The notes beneath the pieces are model-generated. The model had not been told where the DNA came from, made no database searches, and was given only the letters and a program-made list of their open reading frames with translations. From assembly GCA_029204225.1 (NCBI GenBank), contig CM055108.1:15400722-15464721 (forward strand): 64,000 bases of DNA, read 5' to 3'. The position numbers and the translations under genes are program-made. The DNA comes from Diphasiastrum complanatum (Eukaryota > Streptophyta > Lycopodiopsida > Lycopodiales > Lycopodiaceae). Position 1 is the first letter of the stretch. Each line of letters begins with the position of its first letter. Below are positions 11,309 through 56,500 of this stretch, piece by piece.

Positions 11309-11333
11309 GATTTTTTTTAAGATTCAAAGAACT

Positions 11334-11572
11334 GGGGAATCACAAAAAGTCTAGCAAATTCGGGATTCACAAAAAAGTCTAGCAAATTGGGGAATCACAA
11401 AAAGTCTAGCAGATTTGGGATTCACAAAAAGTCTAGCAGATTGGAAAATTACAAAAAGTCTTGCAGATTGGGGAATCACAAAAAGTCTAGCAGATTTGGG
11501 ATTCACAAAAAGTCTAGCAAATTTGGGAATCACAAAAAGTCTAGCAGATTTGGCAATCACAAAAAACTAGGG
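11334..11572. repeat. 27-bp minisatellite, about nine units
   Basis: Tandem imperfect copies of GGGAATCACAAAAAGTCTAG plus about 7 more bases. Units alternate between GGGAATCAC and GGGATTCAC starts, hinting at a 54-bp higher-order period. Because 27 is a multiple of three, both strands stay open and give 9-residue peptide repeats (SARLFVIPK on the minus strand). I treat those as by-products and not as genes. Confidence 0.88.
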
Positions 11573-11634
11573 GTTTTGGGGATTCACGCCCAATTAGACA
11601 AGAGAAGAAAGGAGAAGCCTCTGCCCCTCTACAT

Positions 11635-13264
11635 TTGATGAGTGTGGTAGGAGAGCCCCTGGCATCTACGATGCCAGTATTCATTCAAACAAAAGCCCAG
11701 AAGAGAAAAGAAAAAGAGCCATCCAAAACTGCTACCACTAGTCCTACTAGTAAATGTTCATGTTTCTTATACGTAGGTGAATACCCCAACCCCATAGTCG
11801 AGCAAGGTAACTTTATGAGAATGAAGGAGTGGGTGAAAAAATCCCAAGCCCTAGATCAAGCTAGAGAGGTAGCCTGAGAGCAAGATCAACATCAATCTAA
11901 TGGCGCTAACGATCAATGGCCCACCACTTCCCCTCACTTCCTAGTGAATCCTAGATTATTGCAGTTCATCCATGAGAGGGGACAAAATGCAAACGAGCAT
12001 TCTAGTTTCGAAGTCCCTTTCCATAGCAAGAAAGAAGCATAATACCATACCGATGTCCTAGTCGATCTATTGAGAGATGTTAGAATGCCCGTAGGCACCT
12101 TACTCAAGATGCATCCGACCCTTTGGGAAGGATTGAAGACTTATATAGATAGACCAGGCAGTGAAAAACTAGAAGTGCACCCTACAAATCTGGTGCCAAA
12201 TGAAGAAGTAGAGAAATCACAACCAGTCCACCAAGTAGGAGTGGTTTGGGAGAAGGATGCCAAACACATGACAATCCCAATCACACATCGTGGATTTTCA
12301 AAAGAATCAGCCATAGTCGATGGAGGATCAGGAGTGAATATTATATCCTCCAAACTTTACCATGAATGGGGACTTACTTATATGGTAAGTGCTCCTTTTA
12401 CGATTAGACTAGTTGAACAGTCTAGTGTGAAGTTCTTGGGCATAGCCAATGATGTGCATACTAAAGTAGCCAAAATTTGTTTTGTGCTAGATTTCGTAGT
12501 CCTGGACTTATCGGATTCTCCTCAATCCTATAGTGTCCTGCTAGGTAAATCGTGGCTCCAAACGTCACAAGCTCTTCACGACTGGAGACAGAACCATATT
12601 GTGCTGCAAAATCGCGATTCCACAGTGAAGATCGATCCTGATACCTGGATTACCAAGCCAACAAACCAGTGAGCCATGGTTTCAAGCTCTGCTACTACCA
12701 TCCACTCTGACGAAGAATCAGATGACGGACGTCGATGGAGGAGGATTGTCATACATGATGATTTGCAAAACGATGTGGTAAACTGGACCGAGGCCTTAGC
12801 CACAATCAATTGTCTTCAATTTGACGTTTTGTCAGATGAGCAATCTCTCAAGCAAAGGTCAGCTATTGACCCATTTTCCAATGAGGACAATATCTCTATC
12901 AAGAGATTAGAAAGACCAGCGAAAAAATCTAGCGAGGGCCATCAAGATTCTGTTTTACTTTTTGTGATGAGCCCAAAGGATATAACCCAGGAACCGCTAC
13001 AAGGAGTATGCAGTGAAAAGAAAATTGAAGTTCTTCATGTGTTCACCTTGGAAGAAGGTTGAGAGTATGAGGATGAGGATATTCTTTGAATGTTGATCCT
13101 GACTATTTCGAGCTCGCGCCGAAAGCCCGAGACACTAGATCCACAAGAGTCTCTAGTGAACGCAGATCTCATTGAAACCGCAGAGCCTCACAAGGCAATG
13201 TTGTTGTAGGCCGAATGGATACAGTGATTGATGGATCCTATAACTATTGATGATTTCCTCCCAT
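11635..13264 (+). pseudogene. GYP-3 gag C-terminus and aspartic protease (left part)
   Basis: The protease would cleave the gypsy polyprotein. Its active site is AIVDGGSGVNIISS near 12310-12350 (the D-[S/G]-G type seen in gypsy proteases), with the later hydrophobic LLGKSWL segment near 12540. A linker continues through 12676-13062 after a stop, and on to 13264 with stops. The frame reaches DFLPL at 13264 and appears to continue as MENV at 22018 once DTE-2 is excluded. The 11579-11634 bases also belong to this element. Confidence 0.72.
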
Positions 13265-13266
13265 TA

Positions 13267-13298
13267 GGGCCGTTTTTGGACTCAAAAAAAGCCTCTTC
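13267..13298 (+). repeat. DTE-2 left terminal inverted repeat
   Basis: GGGCCGTTTTTGGACTCAAA and onward to GCCTCTTC. It pairs with the reverse complement of 21982-22014 with only a few mismatches. It is also partly self-complementary (GGCC..TTTTTG against CAAAAA..GCC). A TA lies directly outside (13265-13266). Confidence 0.78.
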
Positions 13299-13739
13299 AC
13301 TAATTATAATTAGTGTTAATGATGACACGTGTCCCAATAAAATATTGACAACTAAGAGGGAATGGTCCATATGACATGGCAAATTCAATGGTGCAGATTA
13401 AATCAAGTGTGGGCCCACAAAGTACACCTCTAACATTAACCCTAGATAAAGCAATAACTATGCCTACAAGTTAACATCAACTAGCCTGTCTATCTACTAG
13501 CAGCCTTATCCTAAGTGAGCCTAGTCCTTATTTCAAATTTTGAATGTTCACAAGCTCATAGCTCTCATCTCTCTCTCTCTCTCTCATTTTGTAGTCTCTC
13601 TCTAAACGACCTCTCTCTCTCTCTCTCTCTCTCATTCTATATACTCCACAAAATATTCTATTTTTTTTATTTTGGTTCACCTTATCTGAAGATCTACACA
13701 CTATTTCGCATATCCTATATTATCATTACATCATCCATT
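13299..13739 (+). promoter_or_regulatory. DTE-2 left subterminal region and probable promoter
   Basis: Contains an AT-rich subterminal segment shared with the right end, then two (CT)n tracts (about 13567-13585 and 13611-13633) and CTATATAC at about 13637, roughly 100 bp before the ATG at 13740. Pyrimidine patches near a TATA-like box are typical of plant core promoters. Function is inferred. Confidence 0.4.
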
Positions 13740-14096
13740 ATGGCCTCTTCTCAATCAAGGAAGCCCAAGAATCAACTAGCTTCCATTGTTGCACACATCA
13801 AAGATTCCAATGAGCATTGGGTGCCCCATACATTTTCAACTTTTCACTGGGTTTACATGCAACCATCAGGCAAAGGAACTCACAAGGTTGCAAAGAGGAA
13901 GCGAAACAACCAAGACTACCATTGGGAAGGAAGGATCCATGAATTCAAGATCGACCAAAATGGCGAATACCTTGCAAATGTGCAACATGTATACATGCGT
14001 CGAGATATTTTATTGGATGTGGCTGTTGCTGATAGAACCATACAGTCACATTGTGGGTCTCACCTCTTTTATTCTTGTGTTAACTATTATGTTTGA
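13740..14096 (+). CDS. BAH-domain-like protein (DTE-2 cargo)
   Basis: The ATG sits in a good context (ATTATGGCC) and opens MASSQSRKPK. The stretch HWVYMQPSGKG, then a basic KRKRNNQDY, then HWEGRIHEFKIDQNGEYLAN and VQHVYMRRDI has the spacing of a bromo-adjacent homology domain, where a GRI.EF strand is followed by a V.W.YR..D strand. BAH domains read histones and nucleosomes in silencing and replication proteins. After ADRTIQSHC the frame becomes low-quality and probably enters an intron (acceptor GGTGTAG at 14150), so this may be the first exon of a longer gene continuing at 14151. The BAH call is motif-level only. Confidence 0.48.
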   Translation: MASSQSRKPKNQLASIVAHIKDSNEHWVPHTFSTFHWVYMQPSGKGTHKVAKRKRNNQDYHWEGRIHEFKIDQNGEYLANVQHVYMRRDILLDVAVADRTIQSHCGSHLFYSCVNYYV

Positions 14097-14150
14097 ATTA
14101 TTATTATGTCATTGTAATGGATAATAATGTTGCATTAATGTCTGGTGTAG

Positions 14151-15033
14151 ATGTCTTTCCTTCAAATAGCTTCGACTGGCAAAACGTGAAGTCCTTCACT
14201 AGAAAATTCTCCACCATACACGCCAAATATGGAGAACTAATATATGGTGGGTTGGCATCCTCTGTCCTGATCAAAATGGACATTTTCTTTTACGATCACA
14301 TGTACGAAGTTCCAAAAAAAAACTTTGGCCAAGGCAAATTAGCACCAATTTCTGAGCGTGCGATCAATTCTCACGAGTGGCCATATGTTGACCAACTGAC
14401 TATTGAATTAACGAAGAGGCAACTTCTCAAAGAGATTACTGGTAATATGAAGCCAACATTCGGATCCAAACGAGTCTACACTAGCATCTCTGTGCCGATC
14501 ATCGTATTTGTTGCCATATTTAAGGCGGTCCCCTTTAGGAAAACAAACACGATGTGGGCATGGAAAGCAACAGAATCATCACTGTTGGATAACATATTTG
14601 TCGCATGGGATTCAAAGGAAATGGAGCATAAAGGAGATTTGATAAGGTGTAAGCTCTCTTGTGAAACAATGACCATAAGGTATCATATTTCACGTCAAAC
14701 ATGCTCCTTAAGTTTCATCTATAGGTGATATAAGTTTGGTCATGGCTGATGGGACCCTCTGGACGCGGAGACGAATCAGCAAGAAGTGGAGATATCCATA
14801 CATTTGCCCCATGATGAAATACGAGAAATTCATATAAATAAGGAGTGCAGCCTAGAAGATCTTCGGCATATACTTGGATTGACTTTTGTTGATGTGCTAG
14901 TAGATTTTGTCTTCACTCATAATGGACAAAATGTGAGTCCGTAATTTCCATCAGATTCTTGAATTTTAAATAGTAATGTTGAATAAATATAGGATTATTA
15001 ACTTTGTGTCTGGTTTCGTAGATACGGAGATGA
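14151..15033 (+). CDS. Unknown DTE-2 protein A (possible continuation of the BAH-like gene)
   Basis: The open part begins after a GGTGTAG acceptor: DVFPSNSFDWQNVKSF, later ELTKRQLLKEI and VPIIVFVAIF. A further exon (about 14750-14935) reads EIREIHINKECSLEDLRHIL then GLTF, and ends at a good donor (AAT|GTGAGT). After an acceptor TTTCGTAG near 15021 the frame stops within three codons. Two segments resemble the minus-strand protein B at 17218-18658: ELTKRQL against ELTKDQL, and EDLRHILGL against HDLQHILGL followed by HNG in both. No known domain recognised. Exon limits are tentative. Confidence 0.42.
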
Positions 15034-15426
15034 GTCGAAAAAGATCATGAATGTGTTCCATTTTTACAAACAGGGACATTAGGAGTCCAATGGGAATAAA
15101 GGATTTAATCTAATGGAAAATAGAAAACACAATTAGTTAGTTGTGTTTTGACTCTATTCTAATATATTTGGTTACGTTTCGACTTTACTTTTGCGTTGTC
15201 ACATTTTATATGACTGTTACTACATTTGTGGATGTCCAAGGTTGAAACTTGTTAGGGTTTAAATCATTTAGTGATATGCATTTTAATACTATTATTAGTT
15301 TTCTTCGAAGGTTTTCGCTAACTAGCAATTAGGATTTTTACTCATGAGCATAGACGAGAACATACTATATTTGGAAAAGAGGCCAAAACTTTTATAGGGA
15401 CACTTACTAAAAATAGAACCCTTCAC
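15034..15426 (+). other. Intergenic stretch upstream of the H3-like gene
   Basis: About 390 bases with no coding signal; it would hold the 3' end of protein A and the upstream promoter of the H3-like gene. Confidence 0.4.
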
Positions 15427-15434
15427 TATATAAG
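15427..15434 (+). promoter_or_regulatory. TATA box of the H3-like gene
   Basis: TATATAAG followed about 30-40 bp later by a pyrimidine-rich TCATTTCTCCACTTCATCCC, a plausible start site. The first ATG is at 15549, giving a leader of about 90 nt. Confidence 0.5.
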
Positions 15435-15548
15435 GGTGCTTGGGTCCTCATTTCTCCACTTCATCCCTTGAGTGTCAGAGTCTCAGTTTTTTTAAATTCT
15501 TTGTTTTTCATCTCTCGTGTTTTCTGATACGTTTTCAAAGGCTAACCA

Positions 15549-16756
15549 ATGTCGGAGGAAATGGCACGGACAAAACAAATGGCTAGAGATTCCAGAGTGA
15601 CTGCATTGCTCCATAGGGATGCACTAGCCACCCTCGATGAGAGAGAGAGACGAGAGAGTAGAAGCAGGAGTAGGAGTCGCAGCCCTATAGCGTCTTAGGA
15701 GGATCCGGCCACTCAGCATGAAGCTGAGGAGGACATGGCCCATAAAGCAGCTGCACAGGAGGACCAGACTGAGCAGTAGCAGCAAGAAGACCAGCAGCGG
15801 CAGGAGGACAAGCAGCAGCAGCAGCTACCACGAGGAAAAAGCCCTTCCCCGATGGCAACTGAGCGGGAGGAAACAATGAAGTTCCTAGATGAGGAGCTTG
15901 CAGCATCAGGTGAGTTGCCGGTTCTGAATGATTCTTCGACCCATTTCCACCAACAATGGTCATGGACACATCAAATTTAGGCATATCGGGGGACACCACA
16001 CCCACCGTGTCACCTCCAAGTCACGGCCCGGTGATGGGTCCGATGATGTCGTTACTGGTGGGTGGTTCTGATGAGGGCACCCCAATGTCGCACACAACAA
16101 GGATGAAGCAGAAGGCGACCCATAGATGGTCAGAGAGAGGAGCACATGAGCGAAAAAGAAAAAATCCTCGCAAGGCAGGCTCTACATCAAAGCGACGGAA
16201 CCCTGCAGCTCAGCAGCCATCACCACTGCCCACACCGCCAACATCGCCTCCACCTCCACCGCCTCCGCCCCCACCGCCTCCACCGCCTCCACCGCCACCT
16301 CCACCACCACCACCTCCACCACCACCTCCACCACCGCCACCGCCTCCAAGTTCTGTCGCAGCTGGCCCAAGTAGGACCGTAGAGCGTGGCAGGTCGGCCC
16401 CTTGTGCAGCACCATGGGCTGGAAAGGAGCTCGGCAGGATGTAGCCACCACCTTTTCGACTGCGTAAAAAGCATAGGATCGCAAAGTGGCTCCAGGATAT
16501 ACGGAGCTATCAGAAGTCCGTAAAATTTTTGATCCCTAGGGCCCCTTTTGTGAGGCTTGTAAAAGAAATAGTCCATGAATTTTCCTTGGGGAACAGAGTT
16601 ACGGCAGATGCGGTGTCCGCAATACAAGAGTCTGCAAAAATGTACCTAACGCAGCTCTTTGAGGACTCATTTTTGTGTGCAGTGTACGGGAAGAGAGTCA
16701 CAATACTCCCGAAGGATCTCCACCTATCTAGAAGGCTAAGGAGAGAGCACAATTAA
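15549..16756 (+). pseudogene. Histone H3-like protein with ARTKQ tail and polyproline linker, three in-frame TAGs
   Basis: The C-terminal part (about 16451-16756) reads as the H3 histone fold: DIRSYQKSVKFLIPRAPF (H3: EIRKYQKSTELLIRKLPF), RLVKEI, LFEDSFLCAVYGKRVTILPK and DLHLSRRLRRE. Loop 1 has canonical H3 length, unlike plant CENH3. The N-terminus is MSEEMARTKQMARDS; the ARTKQ-ARxS tail is recognisable, with K4 kept and K9 replaced by Asp. Next come RS repeats, an acidic Gln/Glu region, basic stretches and about 35-40 prolines. A 71-nt intron (15910-15980, CAG|GTGAGT ... TTTAG|G) joins the two parts in frame. TAGs at 15696, 15777 and 16442 interrupt an otherwise continuous frame. ATG at 15561 would place ARTKQ right after Met. 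Confidence 0.72.
16247..16347 (+). repeat. Proline-codon (CCN) tract
   Basis: A run of CCT, CCA, CCG and CCC codons encoding uninterrupted proline in the H3-like protein. The mixed third positions suggest either selection on the peptide or an old, mutated triplet expansion. Antisense ORFs here (Trp/Arg-rich and Val/Glu-rich) are shadows. Confidence 0.85.
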
Positions 16757-17217
16757 AAATATCATGTACATGATTTTATTTATAATATACTGAAGATTTG
16801 GTGTCAAGTATCTTGCAGAATTTCAAGTTATGTGAATGCATATTGTTGTGATTGAGTTTGATATCTGATTTCAGTACTGTTTATGTGAATGCAGTCATTT
16901 GAAAATTTTAGTATCATCTATGTGAATGCAGTGATTTAAAATTTTCAGTACTATGGGAATGGTAGTTTCTTTAACCATTTGTAGCTAAGATAGGTTTCCA
17001 TGTCGTGGCATGAAAATCACGCCAAGGCGCGACCAGGGGACGTTTAACCTGGTCAAACGGGCCCTGGTCGCGCCCTGGCGTGAAAATCACGCAGGTAAAA
17101 AAAGAAAAAAAATCTTTATTAGAAATAAAAAAATTCTAAATTCAATGAATAAGCACATCATATAATGACAACGGAAAATTAGGAGAGTCCTCAAGAAAAA
17201 GATGACAAAATCTTTAT
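16757..17217. other. Space between convergent DTE-2 genes
   Basis: Lies between the plus-strand H3-like gene and the minus-strand protein B. It holds short repeats of TATGTGAATGCAGT-like sequence (about 16825-16935) and a strong GC-rich hairpin (17018-17082). No coding signal. Confidence 0.5.
17018..17082. repeat. GC-rich hairpin between convergent genes
   Basis: The arm 17018-17038 (CACGCCAAGGCGCGACC...) pairs with 17062-17082 over 21 bp with one mismatch. The inner GTTT/AAAC can extend the stem. It is far more GC-rich than its surroundings. TGAAAATCACGC occurs on both sides in direct orientation (17011 and 17081). It could be a shared terminator, or a small foldback insertion. Confidence 0.72.
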
Positions 17218-18658
17218 TCACATTTGATTTATTTCCTTCAGAGAGGACTTCAGCTTCTCTGATGACAGTAATGGTTTTAACATTTCTAATGCTAATTTAG
17301 GAGCATCTCCCTCATCCTCATAAGGGCCAATTAAACCCGAGAGAATGAGCCGAGTCTCGAATCTAGGACAGAAATTATTCAAAACGGCTTTTCGGAGGAC
17401 ACAGTAAGCCTTTGGTGTTGACGGTGACAAGTCGAGCTCACCAATGTGCTTGGAGAGTGCTTTGCATTTAAGAAGCTCTGATTGTCCATCTAGGCTGTAC
17501 TTGTTGCTGAAGCAAAAAATAAAGTTGTTGGGCAAGTTCTCAATGCCAGAGTTTCTGCTTCAACTTTCTCCCGAGCGCCACCCCTTCGCATTGCAAATGC
17601 ATCAAGCTCCACTGCGTCTTGCATTTGGTTCAAATTATTGCAAAATGAGTATAATGAAGACAAACAAACATAACAAACACACGCAAGTTGAATTGTTGGG
17701 TCAGACTTGCCTCGGTGCCTTCATCAATGTCTTCGATTTGCGCAAGGTCAATTCCTTTGCCTTTGTACTTCACGTCAGCAGTTTTCCCTTCGAGTACCTC
17801 AAATGGCCTCGTTTGAACTGGTGGTGGTTGAAGAGTTTTCAATTGACAAAGCACTCTTGCCAGTGCTTGCTCGGTGGTGTCCGTGTCATGCCCGATCAGC
17901 TTCTCATACGTGTCGTCGGGCTGGGTGTGGTCGAAAGTGGAACTGCCATTATGCAAATTTACCAATGCTGCCAACATCTCATCTTCTCGCAAGCCGAGAA
18001 TATGTTGCAAGTCATGCATGAACACATACTCCTGCCCATCAATGATGATTGGAGCAAGGCCATGGATTCGAAGCACGACATCATCGGACTCATCTATATC
18101 TTCTGGATCCGCTGATGTGGATGCACCTGTTGCCTCTTGCACAGCCAAGACTACTTTGTGCTCCGCAGATAAATCTTCCTCTTCACCCGGGTCGTTCATC
18201 TCGTTTAGCTGTTCACTAGGATTGTGTTTGTTGCTGGCCACAGTCGCTGGAAACTCATTAAGCAAAAAAATAACAGTAATCTCACTGGATAGAAACTTCT
18301 TTCCTACACTTTCAAGATCAAAAGTTTTCAGTTGATCCTTGGTCAGCTCCAAGTAGTGATCGTTACCCAAGTGACTAATAAATCTGTTGAGACGAGCGAT
18401 AAAGGGTCTATCTCCTTTCCATATATAACTAAGCAAGTTATATGGAATCCACATGATAGTTGAGCCAGGAATTTGTATGGCATAAGGCTTCAAAGTTTCA
18501 TCTATATACTCACTCACGTACGTGAATGCATCCGTATTAGCCCGTAGAGTGGCAAGCGTGTCTATTCTACCGGTAAACATACAATAAATATGATCTAACT
18601 GATCTAAAAACTCTGTGGGGGCTAGCAAATTGGCCAACTCTATTTTAGGGGACGACAT
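17218..18658 (-). CDS. Unknown DTE-2 protein B (acidic, multi-exon)
   Basis: The ATG at 18658 opens MSSPKIELANLLAPTEFLDQ and the frame stays open to about 17700. An N-terminal helical region (YAIQIPGSTIMWIPYNLLSY, ELTKDQLKTFDLESVGKKF) is followed by an acidic Glu/Asp stretch, then YVFMHDLQHILGLREDEM, and a KGKGIDLAQIEDIDEGTEA tail. A likely GC-AG intron (GAG|GCAAGT, near 17710) leads to a short exon around 17610-17550 and a last exon (17535-17218) ending LKEINQM. No family recognised. It resembles protein A (14151-15033) around ELTK.QL and L.HILGL....HNG, so the element may carry two diverged copies of one gene in opposite orientation. Confidence 0.5.
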
Positions 18659-18842
18659 TGTTATACAACTAAGAACACTAATTGACCAGCAAACTAGTAG
18701 TCTAATTGAACAAGACAAGCTAAATTACAAGGAAAGAAATTTCAACAAAGTAAGAAGTGACAACAAAATGAAAACCCCCACTCTTACATAGAGGGACGTG
18801 TTTCCAAAAATAGATATGACTATAAAACCAAATAAAATAATT

Positions 18843-18851
18843 TCTATTTAT
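18843..18851 (-). promoter_or_regulatory. Possible TATA box for protein B
   Basis: TTATAAATAG on the minus strand, about 185 nt upstream of the ATG at 18658. The stretch between is AT-rich and non-coding. Confidence 0.35.
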
Positions 18852-18998
18852 AACAACAATCCAATTCGGCAGTAATATTTATCACAAAGGAATATTTGAA
18901 TTACAATTCAACATAAATTGTTTCTATTCCATCTCATCAGTTTCCGTAGTTTCTCTAGTGCTATTTTCCAAGACATTGGATGTTGGTGTCCTCGACAT

Positions 18999-21649
18999 CT
19001 ATCTCTTTCCAACTCGGACTATAGACATCCTCCATTCTTGATGTCTTGTTCTAGCATTAGAGGATTGCCATGCTGTCTTTTTGACTGAATTTGAATTGGA
19101 GATCATTGAACACAACTCTTCAGTTCTTGTGTTTTGAAAGTGTCCTCGGCCCAAAACTCCTCTGTAAAGCCATTGGAATATCTCAACCAATGCATTGCTA
19201 AGACCCTTTCCTCCGCCATGCCATGAATTTTTGAAATACGCAGCCTTTGCCCTGTAATGACTCTTTTCCATGCCTTGCGTATTCCAAATAGCTAATAATC
19301 CATAGGTTTTCATAAACCAAGGTCCATGAGCATAGAAGATGTGCTGTTCATAGAAAATTTGTATTAGTTTAAATCTTTACAAATACATAATTACGAAAGT
19401 AAAAAATATGAGACACACATACCATATAGTGAGTTATGTGTGTTTCTCCCCATGCATTGAATTCAATAAATGTTTTGACTTCTCTTGCGTCTCTATCCAA
19501 ATCTTCATCTCTCACAATCCTTTTGTTGATAGTTTGTGACAAGGCATCAAATGCTTGCCAAACCTTAGCACGTGTACTTGCCATGCGAGGATCTGAGCCA
19601 ATATTTGTTGTGCATTGACATATTTTCCTCCAGTACTCCCATTCAACACTGCTTTCATGTGCAGTATGATTTGACAATAGGTGTCTCGCTTTTGCACCAC
19701 CCATTGAAACTTTTGCTGGAACATCTTGCATTTTTTCACTCATCTCAGCGTCTTTGGTAAGACTCACGTGGCCCCCGTGCAATCCCATATCGGATAAAAT
19801 TATCTCTAGATTTCTAATGCTAACATCTGCTCTTGATTTGGGCTACATGTTCCATGCGTAACAACAATGCAAAAATAATAATTGGTCCAGTATTCGTAAT
19901 TCACCATGCATTGTGCAAAAATGGACTCTTTCGAGAGGAATGTTCAACACAGGACTCCAAGCTTTGTCTAGATTGTGCCTATTTGGTGCAAGACGTTGGT
20001 TGCAATTCAAAATACTGTTTAGCCCAAATTCAAACATACAATATATACAAAAATTCTTTGCATTTGCACCAAGACCATAACCGTACATGCATTTCAAAGT
20101 CTTCAAATCAGCAGCTAGGTGCCATTCTACAACAAAGCTTTCTCCTTCAACATTGAACAATTTGCCTTCATTTTGTACATGTATTATCTTAGATATACTA
20201 CATTTTTCAAATAGCCACTTCAGTATGTCGTGAGACTCCTTAGGAATATCAAATGCAACTATCCAACATATGTGATTTTCGGATTTCATGCTAAATTCTT
20301 TACAATAACTTCTGCCAAACTGTTGCAATTCACGATTCATCAAGGTGATTGTGACACGTTCAAGTTTACGCCCTTTTACGATTTCTGCTTCGTCCAACTT
20401 AATAACAAATATAACTTTACCTACGCAATCTGTAAAATAGAAATTTCATTACGAAAACATATTAGTTGAAGAAAAGCATACAATTGAAAATCGAAATTGA
20501 CAATAAATGTTCTTACCATTTGTTCTAACTTCGTAATGTCGGATCATCATCGCTTGGACCTTTTCCAGATCTAAGAATATATTATTGCCTTGATGGTAAT
20601 GAAAACATGTCGGAGGTCCTTTCTTCTTATTGGTTACTATAGGAGAATCCTCAATATGTTGAAACTCTCCTAATTCAGAGAGCAAAATCGAATTGCATTC
20701 TCGTTTGGCGGATTCAACAAGTTTATAAGTAGGTATTATTTGATGGAGTTTAGCCCCATTTTTGTCAGAGCGTTTCATATACTTCTTCAAAGCTCTATAC
20801 CCCTTGCGACTCACACCTCCTTGGTCACATGCGTACACCATCTCTTTAACATTTGGATTTGGCTTGAACTTGTTGACTAGCTTTTTTGCAATTCTCAAGC
20901 AAATTGAATCACTTGTTTCATCTTCCACAATCTTAATCAAATATTTACCCTTCAAAAAAAGTTTAATATATTTTCCGGCAATAAAATCTTTTCCAACCAT
21001 CTTTTTCAAGAACTCTTTTGTGTCCCTCATACGTCTTTAACTGGCACCACCACCTGGTGCCAAAGCTTCTAGTTTGTGTCTCTTAGTGTTTTCATTTTCT
21101 GCTTGCTGATCCATCGAGACTCTACGCTTTCGTTGTAAGCCATATATTGTCCTTTGAAATATACTGATTGAAGGTTGCAATTCTTCAATTTTTGTGACAG
21201 AACTGGCAAGCTCTATTTTCAAGCCATTTATCTCCTGCTCCAATTTTCATGTTTATTCCATGCAATGACTTTAAATTGTCATTCATACTCAATATATGAA
21301 TGTTTGCTGTATTTGCCAATGTCTCAGCTTGGATTCTTCGAGAATCCATTGCTTGACAATAGCCAAGCAGTCCATTCCGACCATCCTTAACGAACCTTAA
21401 CAAACTATGTACATCAGAAAATTTAGGAGGAGCATCTACCAGTGGATTATGAGGGTATAAATCACCTCTTACCCATAGGTCAATATGTTTTTTTCCTTCT
21501 AATCTCCAACAATGCATGTCATATGGATTTAAGTTAACACCCCATGTAGCTTTGGTGGTCGCATAATCCTTCTCTAACTTCACATGTGAGTGATACTTGG
21601 TTGTCATCTTGAAGATGTCGAATTTCCCAAAAGAATCTATGTAGAACAT
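18999..21649 (-). CDS. DTE-2 transposase-like protein, multi-exon, DDE/RNase H-fold fingerprint
   Basis: Probable cut-and-paste transposase. Reading leftward: HIDLWVRGDLYPHNP (about 21450); a helical basic segment (21037-21243); YACDQGGVSRKGYRALKKYM (about 20800); KVIFVIKLDEAEIVKGRKLE then TLMNREL (about 20340-20430); WHLAADLKTLKCMYGYGLGA then CIYC (about 20040-20130); PLERVHFCTMHGELRILDQL (about 19890-19950); THITHYM followed by a donor (about 19420); and IWNTQGMEKSHYRAKAAYFK then GGG (about 19195-19290). A D in LDE, a D in ADLKTL with a following CxxC, and a late QGxEK glutamate match the layout of RNase H-fold transposases with a zinc insertion (as in RAG1/Transib). The coding parts fall in several frames separated by plausible introns. 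Exact ends are unknown. Confidence 0.58.
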
Positions 21650-21981
21650 TACAATATACCTTAATCAAATGGTGTCAAAGTTCAATGTGAACTAACCATG
21701 ATATAAGCTTTATTAGGCATATACTAGTTTCCATCCCTAGAGTCCTGTTGTAGTTAGGACAATGAAAGGTCGTCCTATACTAACCCTAATCTAGTTTTAA
21801 TTTTAACTTACCTATTAGTTGCCTATTATAGTCTATGCAAATAACCTACAATAGTCTATGAAAATGAGACCTACATTTAGGCCTTAACTCTTGCTCACCT
21901 TGTATGGTAACCCAAGGTAAAGGTGCCATGTAGGATTGATTAGCACTAAATTAATTATGATTAGAAAACTTGTTTAGGCAA
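21650..21981. other. DTE-2 right subterminal region
   Basis: Non-coding, presumably the transposase promoter. Includes TAATTATGATTAG near 21950, shared in inverted form with the left end. A direct repeat (CTATTATAGTCTATG, CTACAATAGTCTATG) lies at about 21823-21861. Confidence 0.45.
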
Positions 21982-22014
21982 GGAAAAGGCCCTTTTTGAG
22001 TCCAAAAAGGGCCC
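21982..22014 (-). repeat. DTE-2 right terminal inverted repeat
   Basis: Matches the left terminus in reverse complement. It contains a perfect 11-bp foldback, GGCCCTTTTTG (21988-21998) with CAAAAAGGGCC (22003-22013) and a 4-nt loop AGTC. TA follows directly (22015-22016). Confidence 0.78.
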
Positions 22015-22016
22015 TA

Positions 22017-24676
22017 ATGGAGAATGTATAGATTGGAACCTAGCAGAGGATGAAGCTCTTTATAAGCTGGAAATCTCATTATGGAACAATAGTGTAAAGA
22101 TGGTAAAAGATTCTACCCCTGATCCACAATCAGAATCGCCAACGAGTGCCAAGGGAGAAGAGCCAATTACTTCAGATTCTCCACCTAGATAATCACCAAA
22201 GGAAAAAGCTCCATTCACCTTCGCAGATTTGGGCATGAAACCATCCAAGAGTGTTAGAAAACTTGACCGTGCTCTAAAAAGATTGGGTATCGACAATCAG
22301 CCAACCACCAGCCCTCTCCATGAATGCAAACTCCTGTATAAATCAAAAACCCTTGAGTGGAAGACTAAGAGTGATAAAAGATGAAATCAAATCCGTGACC
22401 AAGAATAAAAAGAGAAAATTTGCTAGGATGCCGTTGAAGAGCCCAAACCATGACGTGCCACAGTATTTCAAGGATTATGAAATGGATGAAGTGGTAGTAG
22501 TCATGCCCAGGGCAAAGAGACAGCCCTCAGAGGAAACCTCCCAAGGAGCCAATGTTCTTGCACGTACAAAGGAGATAGATCTGGCTGACAGGTGAGAAGA
22601 AAGTCGTATGGTACCACTAGGGGAAGATATAGAGGGAGAGGAGCTTGAGGATCTTAAGGCACTTCTCCACAAATACCACAACTGTCTTGCTTGGAATTAC
22701 GCTGAGTTGAAGGGCATATCGCCGGATGTAGTGGTTCATACCATTCTGTTGTCTGATGGCGCAAAATCCACAATTAGTAGGCCTTATAGGTCCAATCCGC
22801 ATTACGCCTAGCTATTCCAAGAAGAATTGAAGAAGCTTCTAGAGGTAGAATTCATCTACAAGATGGAACACATTGATTGGGTATCACCTATCTTGGTAGT
22901 ACCTAAGAAAAATGGAAAAGTTAAAATCTGTGTGGACTACAAGAAGCTGAATGTTGTAACCAACAAGAACCATTTTTCCTTACCATTCACAAAAATTGTG
23001 TTAGAGAGGATAACCGGAGCTGAAGCCTATAGTTCTCTAGATGGGTTTAGTGGTTATAACAAGGTGTAGATAGCCCTAGAACATCAACACAAGACTGCCT
23101 TCTCCATTGACTGGAAAACTTATGCCTACAAAGTGATGCCATTTGGATTGTGCAACGCTCCCAACACCTTTCAACGAGTGATGAGTTATGTCTTCAAGGA
23201 TTTTCTTTGGAAGTTTCTTGAAATATTCATGGACAACCTGTGTGTCCACTCCTCTAGAGCCCAACATTTAGCTTGCTTAAAGAAAGTGTTCATCCAGTGT
23301 CGATTATTCGACATATTCCTAAACCTGGCCAAATGCCAATTTCTGGTCACGCACGGCATAGTGCTAGGCCATGTTGTTTTGAGGCATGGGATTGCCACTG
23401 ACGTTGACAAAATCCACATAATACTTGCATTGCCTGAACCGAAAACTGTACGCGAAGTGTACATCTTTATGGGGCATTGCAAGGTTTGTCCTAAAAGCCA
23501 AGTTGGCCCACTTAATCTATCAGATGACTATCCAACTAGAATGGACAGCTGAGGCCACTGAGGCTTTCCACAAGCTCAAGAAGGCCTTAGTTACACCAAT
23601 CCTTCGACCTCCTATCTGTACCATAGAATTTCATGTCCACACAGATGCCTCTAATTATGCAATAGGGAGTGTTCTGACCCAACCAAGGGAGTACAAGAAG
23701 GATTTTCGGATCTACTTTGCAAGTAGGCAGTTGATTTCTACAGAGATGAACTATACCACTACCGAGCATGAAGCGCTAGCCATGGTATACAATGTGAAGA
23801 AATTATACCATTACCTGCTAGCCAACCCTTTTGTCTTCTTTGTAGATCACCAAGCCCTACTATATCTGGTGAATAGACCCTGCACAATCGGACGTATCAC
23901 CCAATGGCTACTATTTTTTTAAGAGTTTGACTTTAAAATTGTCGTTCACAAGGGAAAACAACACTATCTGGCTGATCACCTCTCAAGGATTCAAAATGTT
24001 CTCGAGAGTAGAAAGGTTGATGATGAACTCCCTGACGCCATACTATTCCATGTCGACGGCGTTCCAAAGTGGGCTGCTAATATTGTGGGATATCTTATGT
24101 CAGGACGTCCTCTCCCTGAGATGAGCAAAGTAAAATGACGCAGGTTAATTATTAGATCTGCAGGACAACTATATCGCATTTGTAATGATGGAATTCTACG
24201 TCGCTATAAAAGAAGTTCAAGACTTTGGTAGAGAACCAACTGGATGCACGCATCAAAGTTCTAAGATCTGATAGAGGGGGCAAATATTGCACGAAGTGCC
24301 CATGTAGTGAGCATCACCCATGAAGGAATAGGAGGGGGACATTTCGCTGCCAAAGCTACCAATAGAAAGGTCCTGCAACACGGTCTTGTGGTGGCCCATG
24401 ATATTCAGAGATATTCACTATCAGGTCAAGAGGTGTGACGTGTGTCAAAGATTCAACTGAACCCAGGAAAATGATAGGATGTCGTTACGACCTATTTTGG
24501 CTGAAATGTCATTTGAAAAATGGGGCATTGACTATGTCGACCCTATTTGTCCAGTTTCCCGTGGCTCACAAGCTCAATATATAATGATGGGCACTGATTA
24601 CTTGACAAAATGGGTGAAAGCCAAGGTGGCGAGGAAGGCTGATGCCAACTCCACTGCCAAATAGTTAAGAAAACAC
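22017..24676 (+). pseudogene. GYP-3 RT, RNase H and integrase (right part)
   Basis: Continues the gypsy element split by DTE-2. A linker (22017-22595) leads to RT from about 22620: DWVSPILVVPKKNGKVKICV, SSLDGFSGYNKV then a TAG, and VMPFGLCNAPNTFQRVM. The catalytic box reads IFMDNLCV, so the second aspartate of FxDD is Asn. RNase H follows (HTDASNYAIG, TTEHEAL, FFVDHQALLYLV, about 23630-23880), then after a stop the ADHLSRIQN end. Integrase keeps HEGIGGGHFAAKAT, RCDVCQRF (about 24320-24450) and WGIDYVDPI (about 24520). The element is cut at 24676 by the COP-1 LTR and its 3' end is not seen. Confidence 0.8.
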
Positions 24677-31489: not shown

Positions 31490-34400
31490 ATGGCTTCCAA
31501 TGGTGGGATCATGCTAGAGTCTAGTGAAAGGTTGAGTTCATCAAACTACTCTACTTGGAAAGTGAGGATGGAGTCCTTACTTGAGTTGAATGAACTCATG
31601 GACATAGTTGCAGAAATTGAAGAGAGACCTCTCACACTTCAAGAGCAACAAAGGTTTGATAAGAAGGCCAAAAGGGCTCTTCATATCATTAAAATGAATG
31701 TTACAAATGAACTTCTCAAGGAAGTTGGAAAGTGTCAAAGTGCAAGTGAGGCATGGAATGCCTTAAAGAAGCTCTTTGAATCAAAGTCCACATCTAGGGT
31801 ATTGACCCTAAGGAGACAAATATTTTCTAGTAGGCAAAGAGAGGGTGAAAGTGCTCATGCATTTATCTTGAGAGTTAAGTCCCTAAGTGATGATTTAGCA
31901 TGCATTGATGAGAACATAAAAGATGGTGAAATAGTCCAAGTTATGTTGAATGGTTTGCTAAATGAACATGCTAACCTTGTGCAAAGTTTTGCCATTCAAA
32001 GAGTCTTGCCAAGTGTGGTTGACTTGCAAGAAATCTTATTGGCTGAAGAACATAGGTTGCAATCAAAGCTTGATGGTGCATCCTTGCAAGGTGGAGGTGA
32101 AGAGGCTTTCTTCACAAAAGGCAAATTCAAGGGCAAAGGTAAAGGCAAAGGGAAATGGTCCAAAGGTGGTAACTTTGATCATGATGATCACTCTTCCTCT
32201 TCCTCTTCTACTAAGAACAATAAGTCAAAGTTCAAGTGCTTTTATTGTGGGATAAAAGGTCATTTTGCAAATGAATGTTATAAGAAGAAAAGAGAGCAAG
32301 GAGAGAGGCAAGGAAATCTTACAATAGATGAGGAAGAACATAACACATGTGAATCACTTGTTATGACTTCAAGTTTGTTAGCCAACATAGATGATAATGA
32401 TCCTTGGTGGATTGATAGTGGAGCCTCATCTCACATGACAAGACATAAGGAATACTTTACATCCTTATTGTCTTATGAGGGAGAAGGTAACATCATCTAC
32501 ACTGCAAATGATGGTCAATGTGACATCAAAGGCATAGGCACTATTCCTATTTCCCTTTCAACAAATAGGAAAGCAAATCTTGAAAATGTTTTGTACATTC
32601 CTTCAATCACTAAGAATTTGCTTAGTGTAAGTCAAATGATTGACAAAGGACTTGATGTGGAGTTCATTGGAGATGCATGTTTGATAAGTAAATGTGGATC
32701 CTTGATTGCTCAAGGTAGGAGGCATGGTAAACTTTTCAAGCTTGATGCATGTGTGATCTCTAATCATGAAGGATGTATGGCTAGGGAGCAATTGACAAAC
32801 CAAGAAGTTTGGCACAAGAGGTTGGGCCATCCCAACTTCAAATCTTTGGAGGTAATGGCAAAGAAAGAGCTTGTTCTTGGTCTCCCTAAAAGTCTTGTTG
32901 CAAACAATAGTGTTTGTGAACATTGTGCCTTGTCCAAATCTCATAGACTTGCTTATTCTAGATCTACTTCTAGATCTAAAGAAGCTTTTCAACTTGTGCA
33001 TTCTGATATTCATTCTTCTAGTACAACTAGCAATGGTGGGGCAAAGATGTATGCAACTTTCATTGATGACTATAGTAGGTATACTTGGATCTATCTTCTT
33101 AAAAGTAAGGATGAAGTGTTTGCTGCATTTGTCAAGTTCAAGAATGAAATGGAAAACCAATTCAATACAAAGATCAAATGCTTAAGATCTGATAATGGAG
33201 GGGAATACACCTCAAATAGGTTCAAAGACTTTTGTATAGCACATGGGATTAAGAGGGAGATGTCTAGTCCTAGGACTCCACAACAGAATGGAGTGGCCGA
33301 GAGGAAGAATAGAACCCTTTGTGAATGTGCCAAGGCAATGAGACTACATGCTAATCTTGCTAAGTCTTTTTGGGGGGAAGCTTTAGCATGTGCTAACTAT
33401 CTATGTAATAGATGGACAAGTGCTTCCTTTGATGGTAAAACTCCTCATGAGGTTCTTTATGGTAGAAGGCCGAGTGTCAAGCATTGTAGGATCTTTGGAT
33501 GTACATGTTTTGTCAATATCACACTTGATGATAGAACTAAAGAAGATCCTTCATCAAAGAAGGGTGTGTTTGTTGGCTATAGTGAAGTAAGCAAGGCTTA
33601 CAAAGTGTACATTCCTTCTACAAAGAAAGTTGTCATAAGTAGGGATGTCATCTTTCATGAAGAGAATGTTTCCAATGTTGTTGATGTTGATGTTGATGTG
33701 CCTACTAATCATCATGATGTGCAAGATGTCTTGGATGAAGATGGAGATGCCACTCCAAATCAAACTTCAAGGAAGACTCAAAGGCAAAGGGCTAAGCCAT
33801 CAAGGCTAACCTATGATGAAAAAGGAAAGCAAGTGGTGGACAACTCTAACTTTGCTTTTCTTACCTCTTTTGATGAACCAACTTGTGTAGGTGAAGCAAT
33901 TCAAAAGAAGGAATGGATCCAAGCCATGGATCATGAGCATCAAGCACTCATCAAAAGCAACACGTGGAGGTTGGTAAAGCTTCCAAAGGACAAGAAGGCA
34001 ATTGGTTGTAAGTGGATCTTCAAGATCAAGACAAATCAAGATGGATCAATCAACAAGTACAAGGCAAGGTTGGTGGCAAAGGGGTATGCTCAAGAATATG
34101 GTATTGACTATGATGAGACCTTTGCACCCGTGGCAAAGATGGTAACTATTCGAATCCTAATCTCTCTTGCAACTCTTTATGATTGGGATATGTGGCAAAT
34201 GGATGTTACTAATGCCTTCTTGAATGGTGATCTTGAAGAAGATATTTACATGGAGCAACTCAAGTGGCAATTTCTTCAAGGCAAGGAAGATCTTGTTGAG
34301 GTTTGGTTTGAGCTCAAATGGGCTAGTTTTATTAGGTTTGATACTCAACTTCATCTACTCTACTTCATGTTGGATAGAAGTGTAGAAATCTATCTTTTGG

Positions 34401-35518
34401 TTTATGATGGTGACATTGTTTTCACTAACTATAGTGAAAGGTTGAAATCAAGCAATGATGAGATCTTGTGGGATGTTAATCATGTGTTTGAGAGGGAGTA
34501 TCTTCAGAGGTTCAGATCTGAAGATGTTTATAAATGCAAAGTCCTTGATGTTTTATTGGAAGATCAAGATGTTGATCTTGAATTGCTTCATCAACACCAA
34601 GAGGCAAGTAGCAATTGGAAGCTAGTCAAAAGCATGAAAGGGGAGCCACATGGGCAAAGCATCTTGGATCTGTTTTTACAGGTCCTTGAAGGTTCAAGTA
34701 AGGTTCTTGGAGCAGCAAGGAAGTGTCCTTTTACTCTACCTTACTTGTTTAATCTCATGTATGAACATTGTCATGTCAATGTGTTGGAATTGTCAAAATT
34801 CAATGAAACTAGTTCCACAGTTTTGCATCTTTTGGATCTTGGAGATGGAATAGTTATCATTGCTGGTTTTTATGATCAAGTACATGCATTCATTCAAATC
34901 TCAAAAGATATGGAAGTGGTCAATATGTTTACTTTTGAGCAAAGTTCAAGATCTAGCATCCTAGTGTTGGCAAATTGGCAAATTGTTGACAATGTAGGAT
35001 CAAGCGTTATATGCAAATCTTGTGGAGATACTTCAAGTATTTCAAGTTCAGGTTTTGCTCATTCAAATGGAACAGAGAACACATCATTTTGGCATTCATT
35101 CACTCAAGGGCTTTCGTGGATTGGAGATCTACAAAGGCAAGGTGGTGATGGAGGTTCATTCATGGAGATACATGGTGCATTCACTATGGGCATAGTGGAA
35201 TGTGGACGAGGCATGCAAACACCTGTTGGTTACTTTCACTTACAACTTGTTTGCTGCTGTTTTACAGAGAACTCAAAGGTGGATACATGGAGGAATCCTT
35301 TCATTGTTATTCTATGTTCTTTTACATGTATCTTGTTCACCATTCTATGTAAAATTGATGTAAGAAATAGTGAAGCATCCTATATGGGCACTATTATCTA
35401 TATCAATTATGTTGTACTTCATATTGTACATATTAGAACACTTGAAAAGAGATCTATCATCATGATGGAGATCATTCTTAGGTTGGAGCAAAGTAGTGTT
35501 GTAAAACTAGCAAGTTAA
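31490..35518 (+). CDS. COP-2 gag-protease-integrase with a non-homologous C-terminus
   Basis: One uninterrupted 1342-codon ORF. Gag (about 1-240), CCHC knuckle CFYCGIKGHFANEC (about 249), protease WWIDSGASSHMT (about 307), integrase HHCC (about 430-490), HSDIHSS, CLRSDNGGEY and QQNGVAERKNR (about 600) are all intact. RT begins normally (GCKWIFKIKTNQDGSINKYK, ETFAPVAK, MDVTNAFLNG), but after EDIYMEQ (about 920) it diverges. The SLYGLKQ region is missing and YVDD is YDGD. From about residue 985 nothing matches copia RT or RNase H, yet the frame stays open for roughly 350 codons. The C-terminus includes a hydrophobic stretch (NPFIVILCSFTCILFTILC) that could be a membrane segment. Confidence 0.85.
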   Translation: MASNGGIMLESSERLSSSNYSTWKVRMESLLELNELMDIVAEIEERPLTLQEQQRFDKKAKRALHIIKMNVTNELLKEVGKCQSASEAWNALKKLFESKSTSRVLTLRRQIFSSRQREGESAHAFILRVKSLSDDLACIDENIKDGEIVQVMLNGLLNEHANLVQSFAIQRVLPSVVDLQEILLAEEHRLQSKLDGASLQGGGEEAFFTKGKFKGKGKGKGKWSKGGNFDHDDHSSSSSSTKNNKSKFKCFYCGIKGHFANECYKKKREQGERQGNLTIDEEEHNTCESLVMTSSLLANIDDNDPWWIDSGASSHMTRHKEYFTSLLSYEGEGNIIYTANDGQCDIKGIGTIPISLSTNRKANLENVLYIPSITKNLLSVSQMIDKGLDVEFIGDACLISKCGSLIAQGRRHGKLFKLDACVISNHEGCMAREQLTNQEVWHKRLGHPNFKSLEVMAKKELVLGLPKSLVANNSVCEHCALSKSHRLAYSRSTSRSKEAFQLVHSDIHSSSTTSNGGAKMYATFIDDYSRYTWIYLLKSKDEVFAAFVKFKNEMENQFNTKIKCLRSDNGGEYTSNRFKDFCIAHGIKREMSSPRTPQQNGVAERKNRTLCECAKAMRLHANLAKSFWGEALACANYLCNRWTSASFDGKTPHEVLYGRRPSVKHCRIFGCTCFVNITLDDRTKEDPSSKKGVFVGYSEVSKAYKVYIPSTKKVVISRDVIFHEENVSNVVDVDVDVPTNHHDVQDVLDEDGDATPNQTSRKTQRQRAKPSRLTYDEKGKQVVDNSNFAFLTSFDEPTCVGEAIQKKEWIQAMDHEHQALIKSNTWRLVKLPKDKKAIGCKWIFKIKTNQDGSINKYKARLVAKGYAQEYGIDYDETFAPVAKMVTIRILISLATLYDWDMWQMDVTNAFLNGDLEEDIYMEQLKWQFLQGKEDLVEVWFELKWASFIRFDTQLHLLYFMLDRSVEIYLLVYDGDIVFTNYSERLKSSNDEILWDVNHVFEREYLQRFRSEDVYKCKVLDVLLEDQDVDLELLHQHQEASSNWKLVKSMKGEPHGQSILDLFLQVLEGSSKVLGAARKCPFTLPYLFNLMYEHCHVNVLELSKFNETSSTVLHLLDLGDGIVIIAGFYDQVHAFIQISKDMEVVNMFTFEQSSRSSILVLANWQIVDNVGSSVICKSCGDTSSISSSGFAHSNGTENTSFWHSFTQGLSWIGDLQRQGGDGGSFMEIHGAFTMGIVECGRGMQTPVGYFHLQLVCCCFTENSKVDTWRNPFIVILCSFTCILFTILCKIDVRNSEASYMGTIIYINYVVLHIVHIRTLEKRSIIMMEIILRLEQSSVVKLAS

Positions 35519-53581: not shown

Positions 53582-56500
53582 ATGGCATCTATAAATGCAT
53601 ATCTTTTGGATACTAATGAAAGGCTCAACAAAACTAACTATTCCATATGGAAAGTTAGAATGGAATCTATCATGATCATGCAAGATCTGATGGAAATTGT
53701 AAATGGTAAGGAGGGTGAACCTATTCATCCTCAAGAAAAAGCCAAATACATCAAGAGGTGCAATGTTGCACTACATTGCATAAAAATGAATGTTGCAAAT
53801 GAACTCTTAAGAGAGGTAGGAGATTGCACTTCAGCTCAAGATGCTTGGGAGACTTTGCAAAAGGTCTATGAATCCAAGAACCAAACTAGAATGTTAGCTT
53901 TGAAGAATCAAATCTATAGAAGCTATCAAAAGAAAGGAGAGAGTGCACATACTTTTGTCCTAAGAGTAAAGGAATTGAACAAAGAGCTAGCCTTTATAGG
54001 TGACCCTATCAAGGATGAAGAGCTTGTTCAACTCATATTAAATGGACTAAGCTTTGAATTTGACAATTTGGTTCAGGGATATGCAATTATGGGTAAGCTA
54101 CCCATACTTGAAGAACTCCAAGGCACACTCATGGCCGAGGAATCAAGAAGGAGCCAAATGCAAGAGAGGATGGATAGGCTTTCCATCCAAGGTGGAGATG
54201 ACCAAGCTCTCTTCACCAAAGGCAAAGGCAAGTCCAAAGCCAAAGGATCAACATTCAAGAAGTCTACAAAGCTTGAGGATCAAGAAGGACCCCCAAAGGC
54301 ATCTCCATCAACCACCAAAGTCAAGAAGGACAAATCAAAGGTGAAGTGCTACTATTGTAGCAAGATGGGGCATTATGCCTCGGAATGCTTCAAGAGGAAG
54401 CAAGATCAAAGCCAAGCCAACATGAGCAAAGAGGAGGAGGAGGAGAGTTCACATGAGGACTCTCTCATGATGTCCATATTTTCTTCAACAAGCTTCAAAG
54501 GAGAAGATCCTTGGTGGATTGACTCGGGTGCTAGTTCACACATGACTAGTAAAAGGGAGTTTTTCTCTTCTCTCTTATCTTATGATGGACCTATAAAGTC
54601 TATCTATACAGCAAATGATGAAGCTTGTAAGATTGAAGGAGTTGGTAGCATTCCCCTTTGCTTAGGATCTTCCAAAAAGATCAACATAGAAGGTGTTTTG
54701 TACATTCCTACAATAACAAAGAATCTACTAAGTGTTGGCCAAATGGTAGACAATGGTTTCAATGTTGACTTTGCTTCAAATGAATGTTTCATCAAGAAGA
54801 AGGGTAAGATAGTGGCTAAGGGCACTAGACTTGGCAAACTTTATAAGCTGGATGCATTTGTGGATACTAATGTTGTCATGTTGGCCGAGAAGAGCAAGAT
54901 ATCTACCTTTACTTTATGGCACAAAAGACTTGGACATGTCAACTCGGGTTCCATGGAGGCTATGATCAAGGAGGAGTATGCTTTAGGCCTACCAAGGTCT
55001 ATTGGGAAGGAAGACAAGGTTTGTGAAGCTTGTGCCTTATCCAAGGCACATAAGAAGGTGTTTCCTAACTCCATCACAAAGTCATCTCATCCTCTTGAAC
55101 TCATACACTCGGATGTGCACATTGCTAGCACCAAATCTAATGGAGGTTCATCCATGTTTTTAACCTTCATTGATGACTACTCAAGATATTGTTGGGTGTT
55201 CTTACTTTCCTTCAAGTATCAAGTATTTGATACTTTTGTAAAGTTCAAGTTGTTTGTGGAAAAGCATCATAATCATAGCATCAAAATTCTTAGAAGTGAC
55301 AATGGTGGAGAATTCATCTCCAATGAGTTCAAGGCCTTTTGTGAGGAGGAAGGGATCAAGAAAGAGACTTCTTGTCCTTACACTCCTCAACAAAATGGAG
55401 TTGCTGAAAGAAGGAATAGAACATTATGTGAATGTTCTAAGGCTTTAAGATTAGATGCTTGTTTGCCCAAATCCTTTTGGGGTGAGTCTCTTGTATGTGC
55501 AAACTACTTGATGAATAGGGTGTCTTGCAAAGAAACTGAAGGCAAAACTCCTTATGAGATGTTGTATGGAAAGAAACCCAATCTTAATCACTTGAAAGTT
55601 TTTGGGTGTATATGTTATGTGCATGTGCCATTGGAAACAAGAACCAAGGAGGATCCATCTTCCACGAGAGGGATCATGCTTGGATATGCAAGCTCAAGCA
55701 AGGGCTACAAAGTCTATCTCCCATCCTTGAACAAATTTGTTGTTTCAAGGGATGTCATATTTGATGAACATCATATGCATATGCTTGAAGAAGGCTCAAG
55801 TGCTCCAACAATCAAGAAGAAGATGGCCGAGGAGCAAGATCTTGGTTTTGAGGAGGAGCTCATGGAGGAGCAAGCACCAAACCCACCTATCACACCAAGG
55901 AGATCTTCAAGGGCAAAAGTGGAGCCATCAAGGCTCACATATCAAGGCAAAGGACAGCAAGTTGAGGGTATCTCATCCACTTCTTATGCTTTATCTAGTT
56001 TTGAAGAACCGTCTAATGTTGAAGATGCATTGAACTCCAAAGAATGGTATAAAGCTATGTTGGATGAGTATGATGCCTTGATTGAGAATGAAACTTGGTT
56101 GCTTGTTGAGAGACCTCAAAGGAATGTAATAGGATGCAAGTGGGTCTTCAAGCTTAAGTTGAATGCAAATGGGAGTGTTAACAAACATAAAGCAAGATTA
56201 GTTGCAAAAGGCTATGCTCAAGAGAGAGGGATAGACTATGAGGAAACTTTTGCACCCGTGGCCAAGATGGTCACAATAAGACTAATCATTGCACTTGCAT
56301 CACATTTTGGATGGATTCTATGTCAAATGGATGTCTCTAATGCTTTCTTGAATGGTTTTTTGGAAGAGGATATCTATATGGAGCAGCCACAAGGGTTCAT
56401 CAAGCATGGAATGGAGAACAAAGTATGCCATCTCCAAAGAAGCATCTATGGCTTGAAGCAAGCCTCGAGATCTTGGAATTCAAGACTACATTGCTATCTT

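Follow-up and report, generated by a model that had tools for sequence, protein, structure and literature searches.

Results

The type A element and its H3-like gene

The window, a stretch of 64,000 nucleotides from the genome of Diphasiastrum complanatum (contig CM055108.1), carries a broken histone H3-like gene (15549 to 16756, plus strand) inside an 8758 bp transposon at 13262 to 22019, the limits of which were set from its terminal inverted repeats (TIRs), from homologous copies and from empty paralogous sites, and which belongs to a family that we have named type A. The left TIR (CATTAGGGCCGTTTTTGGACTC..., 13262 to 13298, plus strand) and the right TIR (21983 to 22019, minus strand) form an inverted repeat of 89% over 38 nt, the right one being placed also by an end pattern that recurs genome-wide, and the element ends read CATTAG...CTAATG both in type A and in a second family, type B. 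Between the TIRs lie the first exon of gene M (13740 to 14051, plus strand), a second exon region of this gene with approximate limits (14150 to 14935, plus strand) made up of open frames, the H3-like gene, a GC-rich 42-nt inverted repeat (17008 to 17092) that varies between copies and, on the minus strand, gene R (MSSPKIELAN..., 17630 to 18718) and a transposase. The catalytic exon of the latter (19372 to 20445) holds KLDE, HLAADLK, C-x2-C and H-x4-H and contains one TAG, and its upstream exon region (20449 to 21649) is broken into open frames, although the copy L024 has it as a single open frame of 403 aa. The sister copy L020 aligns with the window element end to end, both TIRs included. 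No family match was found for gene R, nor for gene M in Pfam and PDB profile searches, and the by-eye impression of a BAH domain in gene M was therefore dropped. The GC-rich hairpin, with its GCGCGACCAGGG motifs, gave more than one match in several other copies. Outside the element, a 27-bp unit (AAAAAGTCTAGCAGATTTGGGATTCAC) is repeated eight times in tandem at 11317 to 11592, and long open copia-type retrotransposon frames of 1322 and 1342 aa lie at 53582 to 57550 and 31490 to 35518, respectively.

The H3-like gene begins at 15549 with an H3-type tail (MSEEMARTKQMARDS), continues through RS repeats and Gln/Glu-rich and polyproline stretches, and ends in a histone-fold core (16445 to 16753) directly before the stop codon at 16754 to 16756. 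All of these features had been described in an earlier note made from the sequence of the window and are present where it placed them; that account omitted, however, that the gene is not one open frame. Three TAG stops and a single change of frame interrupt the window copy: the tail frame, counted from 15549, has TAG at codons 50 and 77, and the middle and core follow in a different frame, in which the third TAG, at 16442, immediately precedes the core. Some sister copies are open throughout, such as L009 with its uninterrupted frame of 417 residues. Reading from the first ATG would put MSEE ahead of the tail and block a free Ala1; a second ATG at 15561, which has the better plant context (GGAAATGGCAC versus CCAATGTCGG at the first), would give MARTKQMARDS. 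It should be noted that the retention of K4 and the replacement of K9 by Asp, as read earlier in the tail segment MARTKQMARD (15561 to 15590), are correct when the H3 tail is numbered from this second ATG.

Profile searches and structure prediction bear out the H3 nature of the core. It matches the Pfam Histone profile PF00125 with an E value of 7.2e-26 (91.3 bits, cut-off 26.4) and H3.1 in the PDB with 2.2e-25, the HMMER alignment to H3.1 having a three-residue gap and then running gap-free from the first core helix; its identity to host H3 is 48-53%. The AF2 model has four helices (residues 6-27, 32-46, 54-82, and 89-100; pLDDT 78, pTM 0.56), and the 50 Foldseek matches shown are all nucleosomal H3 chains (best E 4.3e-7). 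Their TM-scores reach only about 0.6 and the rmsd is mostly high, the probable reason being that a histone modelled by itself packs its helices in another way. Weak Pfam matches of the CENP-T/CENP-S type are uninformative, since canonical H3 yields the same matches. The residue at H3 R63 reads as Pro in both type A and type B.

Copies, ends and insertion

Across the 1.74-Gb genome the H3 core was matched by all 150 of the scored candidates at 70-100% identity, and the transposase exon by all 113; both counts are lower bounds (at least 150 and at least 113), given that scoring covered 150 of 6,073 first-look candidates for the former and 113 of 13,814 for the latter. This number of cores speaks against a single ordinary host locus. 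At 53 of the 113 transposase exons a listed H3 copy lies within 6 kb in the convergent arrangement of the window, where 0.12 would be expected. The 27-nt end pattern, allowing two mismatches at most, occurs 967 + 956 = 1,923 times (reversed control 0 + 0), which corresponds to about one thousand elements, short ones included, and a type A end falls inside the fetched stretch in 11 of 14 type A loci. Placed as it is between these TIRs and near the transposase exon, the H3-like gene is carried inside a transposon, as had been proposed, and it is near certain that it is a gene of the element, the window having a single, decayed copy of this element-encoded H3 variant. Canonical-type H3 accounts for 13 Pfam matches at 163-165 bits in the genome, and the eight that were read all have the ordinary ARTKQTARKSTGG tail.

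The distribution of 100 type A copies over the 15 chromosomes of known length is even (KS p 0.95). Among the 100 type A ends listed, 12 fall in the region C1:48.6-51.1 Mb; these all lie on the minus strand, with spacings between about 50 and 840 kb, and may form a segmental array. In L014 and L022, two of the 11 loci with a type A end, that end lies on a portion of a type A element that adjoins the first in inverted orientation. L032 (C1:67871190-67872540) is a 1.14-kb element with type A ends and a GC-rich inverted repeat, too short for the genes: a MITE-like derivative.

The element sits in a repeat: of the 40 matches listed for its joined flanks, two are the window's own flanks and 38 lie elsewhere in the genome. 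In the three paralogous empty sites that were read the junction is gap-free, so that insertion added no bases at those three sites. The ends of six type A and two type B elements were also inspected: seven of these eight lack direct repeats of 2 bp or more, and the remaining one has AAT on both sides, which chance could give.

Classification of the transposase

The catalytic exon of the window transposase is 89% identical to the open exon of L020. By sequence no convincing match to the transposase was found in the PDB or in Pfam, and a scan of IMG/VR returned no relative; the fold of its homologue P0003, on the other hand, is RAG1/Transib-like, with the RAG1 core as top fold match. The residues D280, C300, C303, H378, and H383 are present in 58 of 58 sequences, with the same motif in the window. 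The CMCT clade comprises EnSpm/CACTA, Mirage, Chapaev, Transib, Plavaka, ESTA, and Lanisha (PMC12730594), and the elements described here share with it the 5'-CA..TG-3' ends (in both families), the C-x2-C and H-x3-4-H pairs after the second Asp, and the RAG1-like catalytic fold, as seen in the homologue. They depart from the 2-5 bp target site duplication (TSD) given for the clade (PMC12730594), as none was found at the three empty sites and seven of eight elements were without end repeats. The top fold match to the RAG1 core is a likeness to RAG/ProtoRAG and Transib, but the 5-bp TSD of RAG/Transib was likewise absent from the three empty sites and the eight elements, and an animal genome has few autonomous Transibs (PMC4411706), as against the roughly one thousand elements here. 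Nor is the fold match specific to RAG among the members of the CMCT clade. We describe the element as a RAG1-fold (CMCT-clade) TIR transposon encoding a transposase, an H3 variant and two further proteins. The label of Merlin (DTE) in the earlier note has to be withdrawn: Merlin has an 8-9 bp TSD and a Merlin transposase, and it is excluded here by the RAG1-like fold of the homologue and by the lack of a TSD at the empty sites, the ends being CA..TG.

A second family with a protease extension

In six of 20 fetched loci the H3-like gene was of type B, and type B copies number at least 122, a lower bound, as all 122 candidates scored out of 9,957 matched at 84-100%. The two families are diverged: their H3 cores are 45% identical, their transposase exons align with an E value of 2.5e-70 and 27-48% identity depending on the piece, and for gene M the first exon is 32-36% identical and the L020 equivalent of the second exon matches type B with 3.7e-34. 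The genes placed as gene R are barely alike (E 0.021 only), and gene R is for this reason not claimed as common to both families. The order M, H3, R, transposase is the same in three type B copies (L016, L026, and L027) as in the type A element of the window, and in these three the orientation of the H3 gene and gene R is opposite to that in the window.

In three type B copies (L016, L025, and L027) the H3-like gene reads beyond its open frame, past a likely intron, into a DHW motif, and a QQN-SF-CGW stretch follows further on in L016 and L027, its last part being lost in L025. When L016 is read as spliced across inferred introns it matches Peptidase_C48 (Ulp1) with an E value of 2.9e-7 (31.0 bits, cut-off 20.7). 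Because this match lies behind the histone on the spliced reading, type B has the appearance of an H3 joined to an Ulp1-like (C48) protease. No domain of the Peptidase_C48 type was found in the type A frames scanned. The type B core is one residue longer than the Pfam profile (residues 27-123 on 27-122). That H3 had been captured by the element, as the earlier note put it, is incomplete as a description, since two diverged families have H3 and one has it as an apparent fusion to a protease.

Tail conservation, selection and methylation decay

In type A, numbered from the second ATG, position 4 is Lys in all 29 readable tails among the 31 aligned, and at position 9 the 14 tails shown have Asp in 12 cases and Gly in two; the majority tail keeps A1 to R8 of ARTKQTARKS and replaces K9 and S10. 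The type B tail, MDRRKQTRRDF, has K4 in 22 of 24 copies and Asp9 in 23 of 24, so that the replacement of K9 extends well beyond the window. Both families keep the lysine of the active mark (K4) and replace that of the silencing mark (K9).

Selection was tested by comparing the ratio of replacement to silent changes between changes present in two or more copies and private (singleton) changes, in a sample of 14 type A loci from the Pfam list picked for open frames, to which 20 type A and 20 type B copies were added going down the match lists. In the 26 type B copies shared changes in the core were 28:34 against 56:20 for singletons (p 0.0008), those in the C-terminal part were 57:44 against 116:44 (p 0.010), and those in the short N-tail were 7:8 against 23:12 (p 0.23, not significant); in both families the shared class may include changes from segmental duplication or recurrent deamination. 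In type A the direction was the same but weak, with p 0.26 for the core (n = 35), 0.47 for the tail (n = 31), and 0.16 for the middle (n = 33), and p 0.041 when the three regions were pooled. Pairwise pN/pS was lowest in the cores (0.46 in 15 type A copies and 0.32 in six type B copies) and higher, at 0.67-0.90, in tail, middle and extension. Since amino-acid changes are depleted among its shared changes, the type B H3 was under purifying selection, the evidence being weaker for type A. In type B 17 of 26 copies are without an in-frame stop.

The decay of the copies has a distinct signature. C-to-T changes per site were 0.108 at CG, 0.097 at CHG, and 0.027 at CHH in 24 type B genes, with transversions at 0.015-0.023, and 0.101, 0.082, and 0.032 in 21 type A genes, with transversions at 0.030-0.040; of 14 stops in the type B sample 13 were TAG and one was TAA. 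The pattern is that expected from the decay of plant DNA methylated at CG and CHG, and CHG methylation is tied to H3K9me2. This decay shows that the copies were silenced and that any protection was incomplete.

Ancestry and related proteins

A tree of 46 cores, which rests on a short alignment with long branches and in which Arabidopsis, rice, and maize CENH3 served as references, placed types A and B together at 80/67, a grouping to be read with a warning of long-branch effects; its base does not decide between an H3 and a CENH3 origin. A search for relatives, in which the 7,993 candidates sharing most words were scored and the best 120 of 2,978 matches retained, contributed 19 H3-like proteins that form a 100/100 clade, two of them from Ceratopteris, and a single clade of all element and related proteins was not rejected (p-AU 0.31). 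P0208 and P0214 (Ceratopteris richardii), P0188, P0202, P0206, and others have mostly ARTKQT-type tails and a conserved extension, which is C-terminal in P0126, P0188, P0202, P0206, and P0208 (Ceratopteris and others). P0208 represents 13 sequences, and Ceratopteris richardii also has a transposase homologue, P0079. The HHalign comparison of the extension of these relatives with that of type B, for which the L016 row of the type B set had been cut at the wrong place with the core still included, did not reach significance (E 0.21, against 0.062 for the reversed control), and common descent of the extension-bearing relatives with the transposon genes is therefore not claimed. Two further candidates, P0105 and P0106, turned out to be tandem canonical H3.

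Discussion

Our main reading, to which we give a probability of roughly 45%, is that the transposon encodes an H3 devoid of K9 which counters silencing by H3K9me2 and CHG methylation. The H3-like protein would be made and would pair with host H4, it would join nucleosomes on or near the element in which K4 of the tail could take an active mark, and, given Asp at position 9, such nucleosomes could not maintain H3K9me2 and the linked CHG DNA methylation. The Ulp1-like protease joined to the type B histone would in addition strip SUMO or similar marks locally. Splicing, expression, nucleosome entry and the anti-silencing effect are all predictions of this reading, as is the possibility, raised in the earlier note, that the protein may mark or shield the chromatin of the transposon. 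Against it, the long tail of type A and the longer loop of type B could bar normal entry into nucleosomes, and use of the first ATG of type A would leave Ala1 blocked. The Pro in place of R63 in both families, the weak selection signal of type A taken alone, the choice of some copies for their open frames, the slight likeness of gene R between the families and the silencing decay of the copies also count against it. A wider form of the same reading, in which a transposon superfamily builds silencing-resistant chromatin from an H3 that keeps K4 and cannot be marked at position 9, fused in one family to a SUMO-type protease, and element nucleosomes thereby escape the loop of H3K9me2 and CHG methylation, is tentative and to our minds less likely than not.

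The histone fold might instead serve as the pairing module of an element protein that is not packed into nucleosomes, with partners such as H4, histone chaperones or the transposase, or as a means of aiming the type B protease at chromatin. The long low-complexity tail of type A, the extension and protease of type B and the type A core, only 48-53% identical to host H3, all fit such a protein, but the best match of the core is to H3, gap-free from the first core helix, and both families retain K4, for which a module that does no more than pair would have no need; we regard this explanation as unlikely. That a host H3 fragment was transduplicated into the element and multiplied there without function has a precedent in Pseudocercospora fijiensis and its relatives, where a hAT transposon captured histone H3 (PMC6710886), and many copies here are indeed broken and the selection signal of type A is weak. 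This explanation is improbable in view of the selection in type B and its majority of copies free of in-frame stops, the presence of the gene in two families with such diverged cores, and the tail with K4 and Asp9 common to both. A CENH3-derived histone that targets centromeres or chromatin, directing insertion or driving chromosome behavior, is the least probable: there is a resemblance to plant CENH3 in the LIP-APF, AAEDY, and KDF-type residues and the base of the tree is compatible with such an origin, but the tree does not group types A and B with CENH3, loop 1 of type A, compared with H3 and with Arabidopsis CENH3, is not longer than that of H3 (gap-free versus H3.1) as it is in CENH3/CENP-A, and the even spread of the 100 type A copies over 15 chromosomes speaks against centromere targeting.

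The closest known case is the fungal hAT element, which likewise has an H3-like coding sequence in a DNA transposon of 9-10 kb with hundreds of copies (PMC6710886). There, the insert is a copy of an H3 transcript, mostly of the third exon, all copies are inactivated by RIP and the TSD is 8 bp (PMC6710886), whereas here the H3 is long diverged and occurs in two families with some open copies and selection in type B, the transposase has a RAG1 fold and the empty sites are without TSD. The plant Vandal VANC and the Ulp1-carrying KIU genes are likewise anti-silencing genes encoded by elements, one class having an Ulp1 domain; these are MULE elements, and a histone is not mentioned in the parts of that account cited here (PMC13317346), while in type B the Ulp1-like protease follows H3 within one gene. 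Transposons with TET/JBP or SET genes similarly carry chromatin modifiers that are thought to let them escape silencing, but those are enzymes and the product here is a structural histone; nor is a histone gene mentioned for CMCT elements in the sections of the same source that describe them (PMC12730594). The proposed anti-silencing effect would thus parallel that of VANC/KIU and TET-carrying transposons by a structural route. In the literature searched we found no case of a transposon-encoded histone in plants and no histone-protease gene like that of type B, and the word histone does not occur in a review from 2026 on the capture of genes in plants.

A RAG1-fold transposase that inserts without TSD is a departure from what is reported for CMCT elements. 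With Asp9 in both families and K4 kept, the idea of an H3 lacking K9 is directly testable at the H3K9me2-CHG loop. If the wider form of the reading is true, the related long H3 proteins in the fern and in the databases would make it an old strategy, widespread among selfish DNA. The anti-silencing genes known from transposons code for enzymes and DNA-binding factors; were selection to maintain a structural histone among the genes of an element, selfish DNA could supply the very chromatin that packs it.
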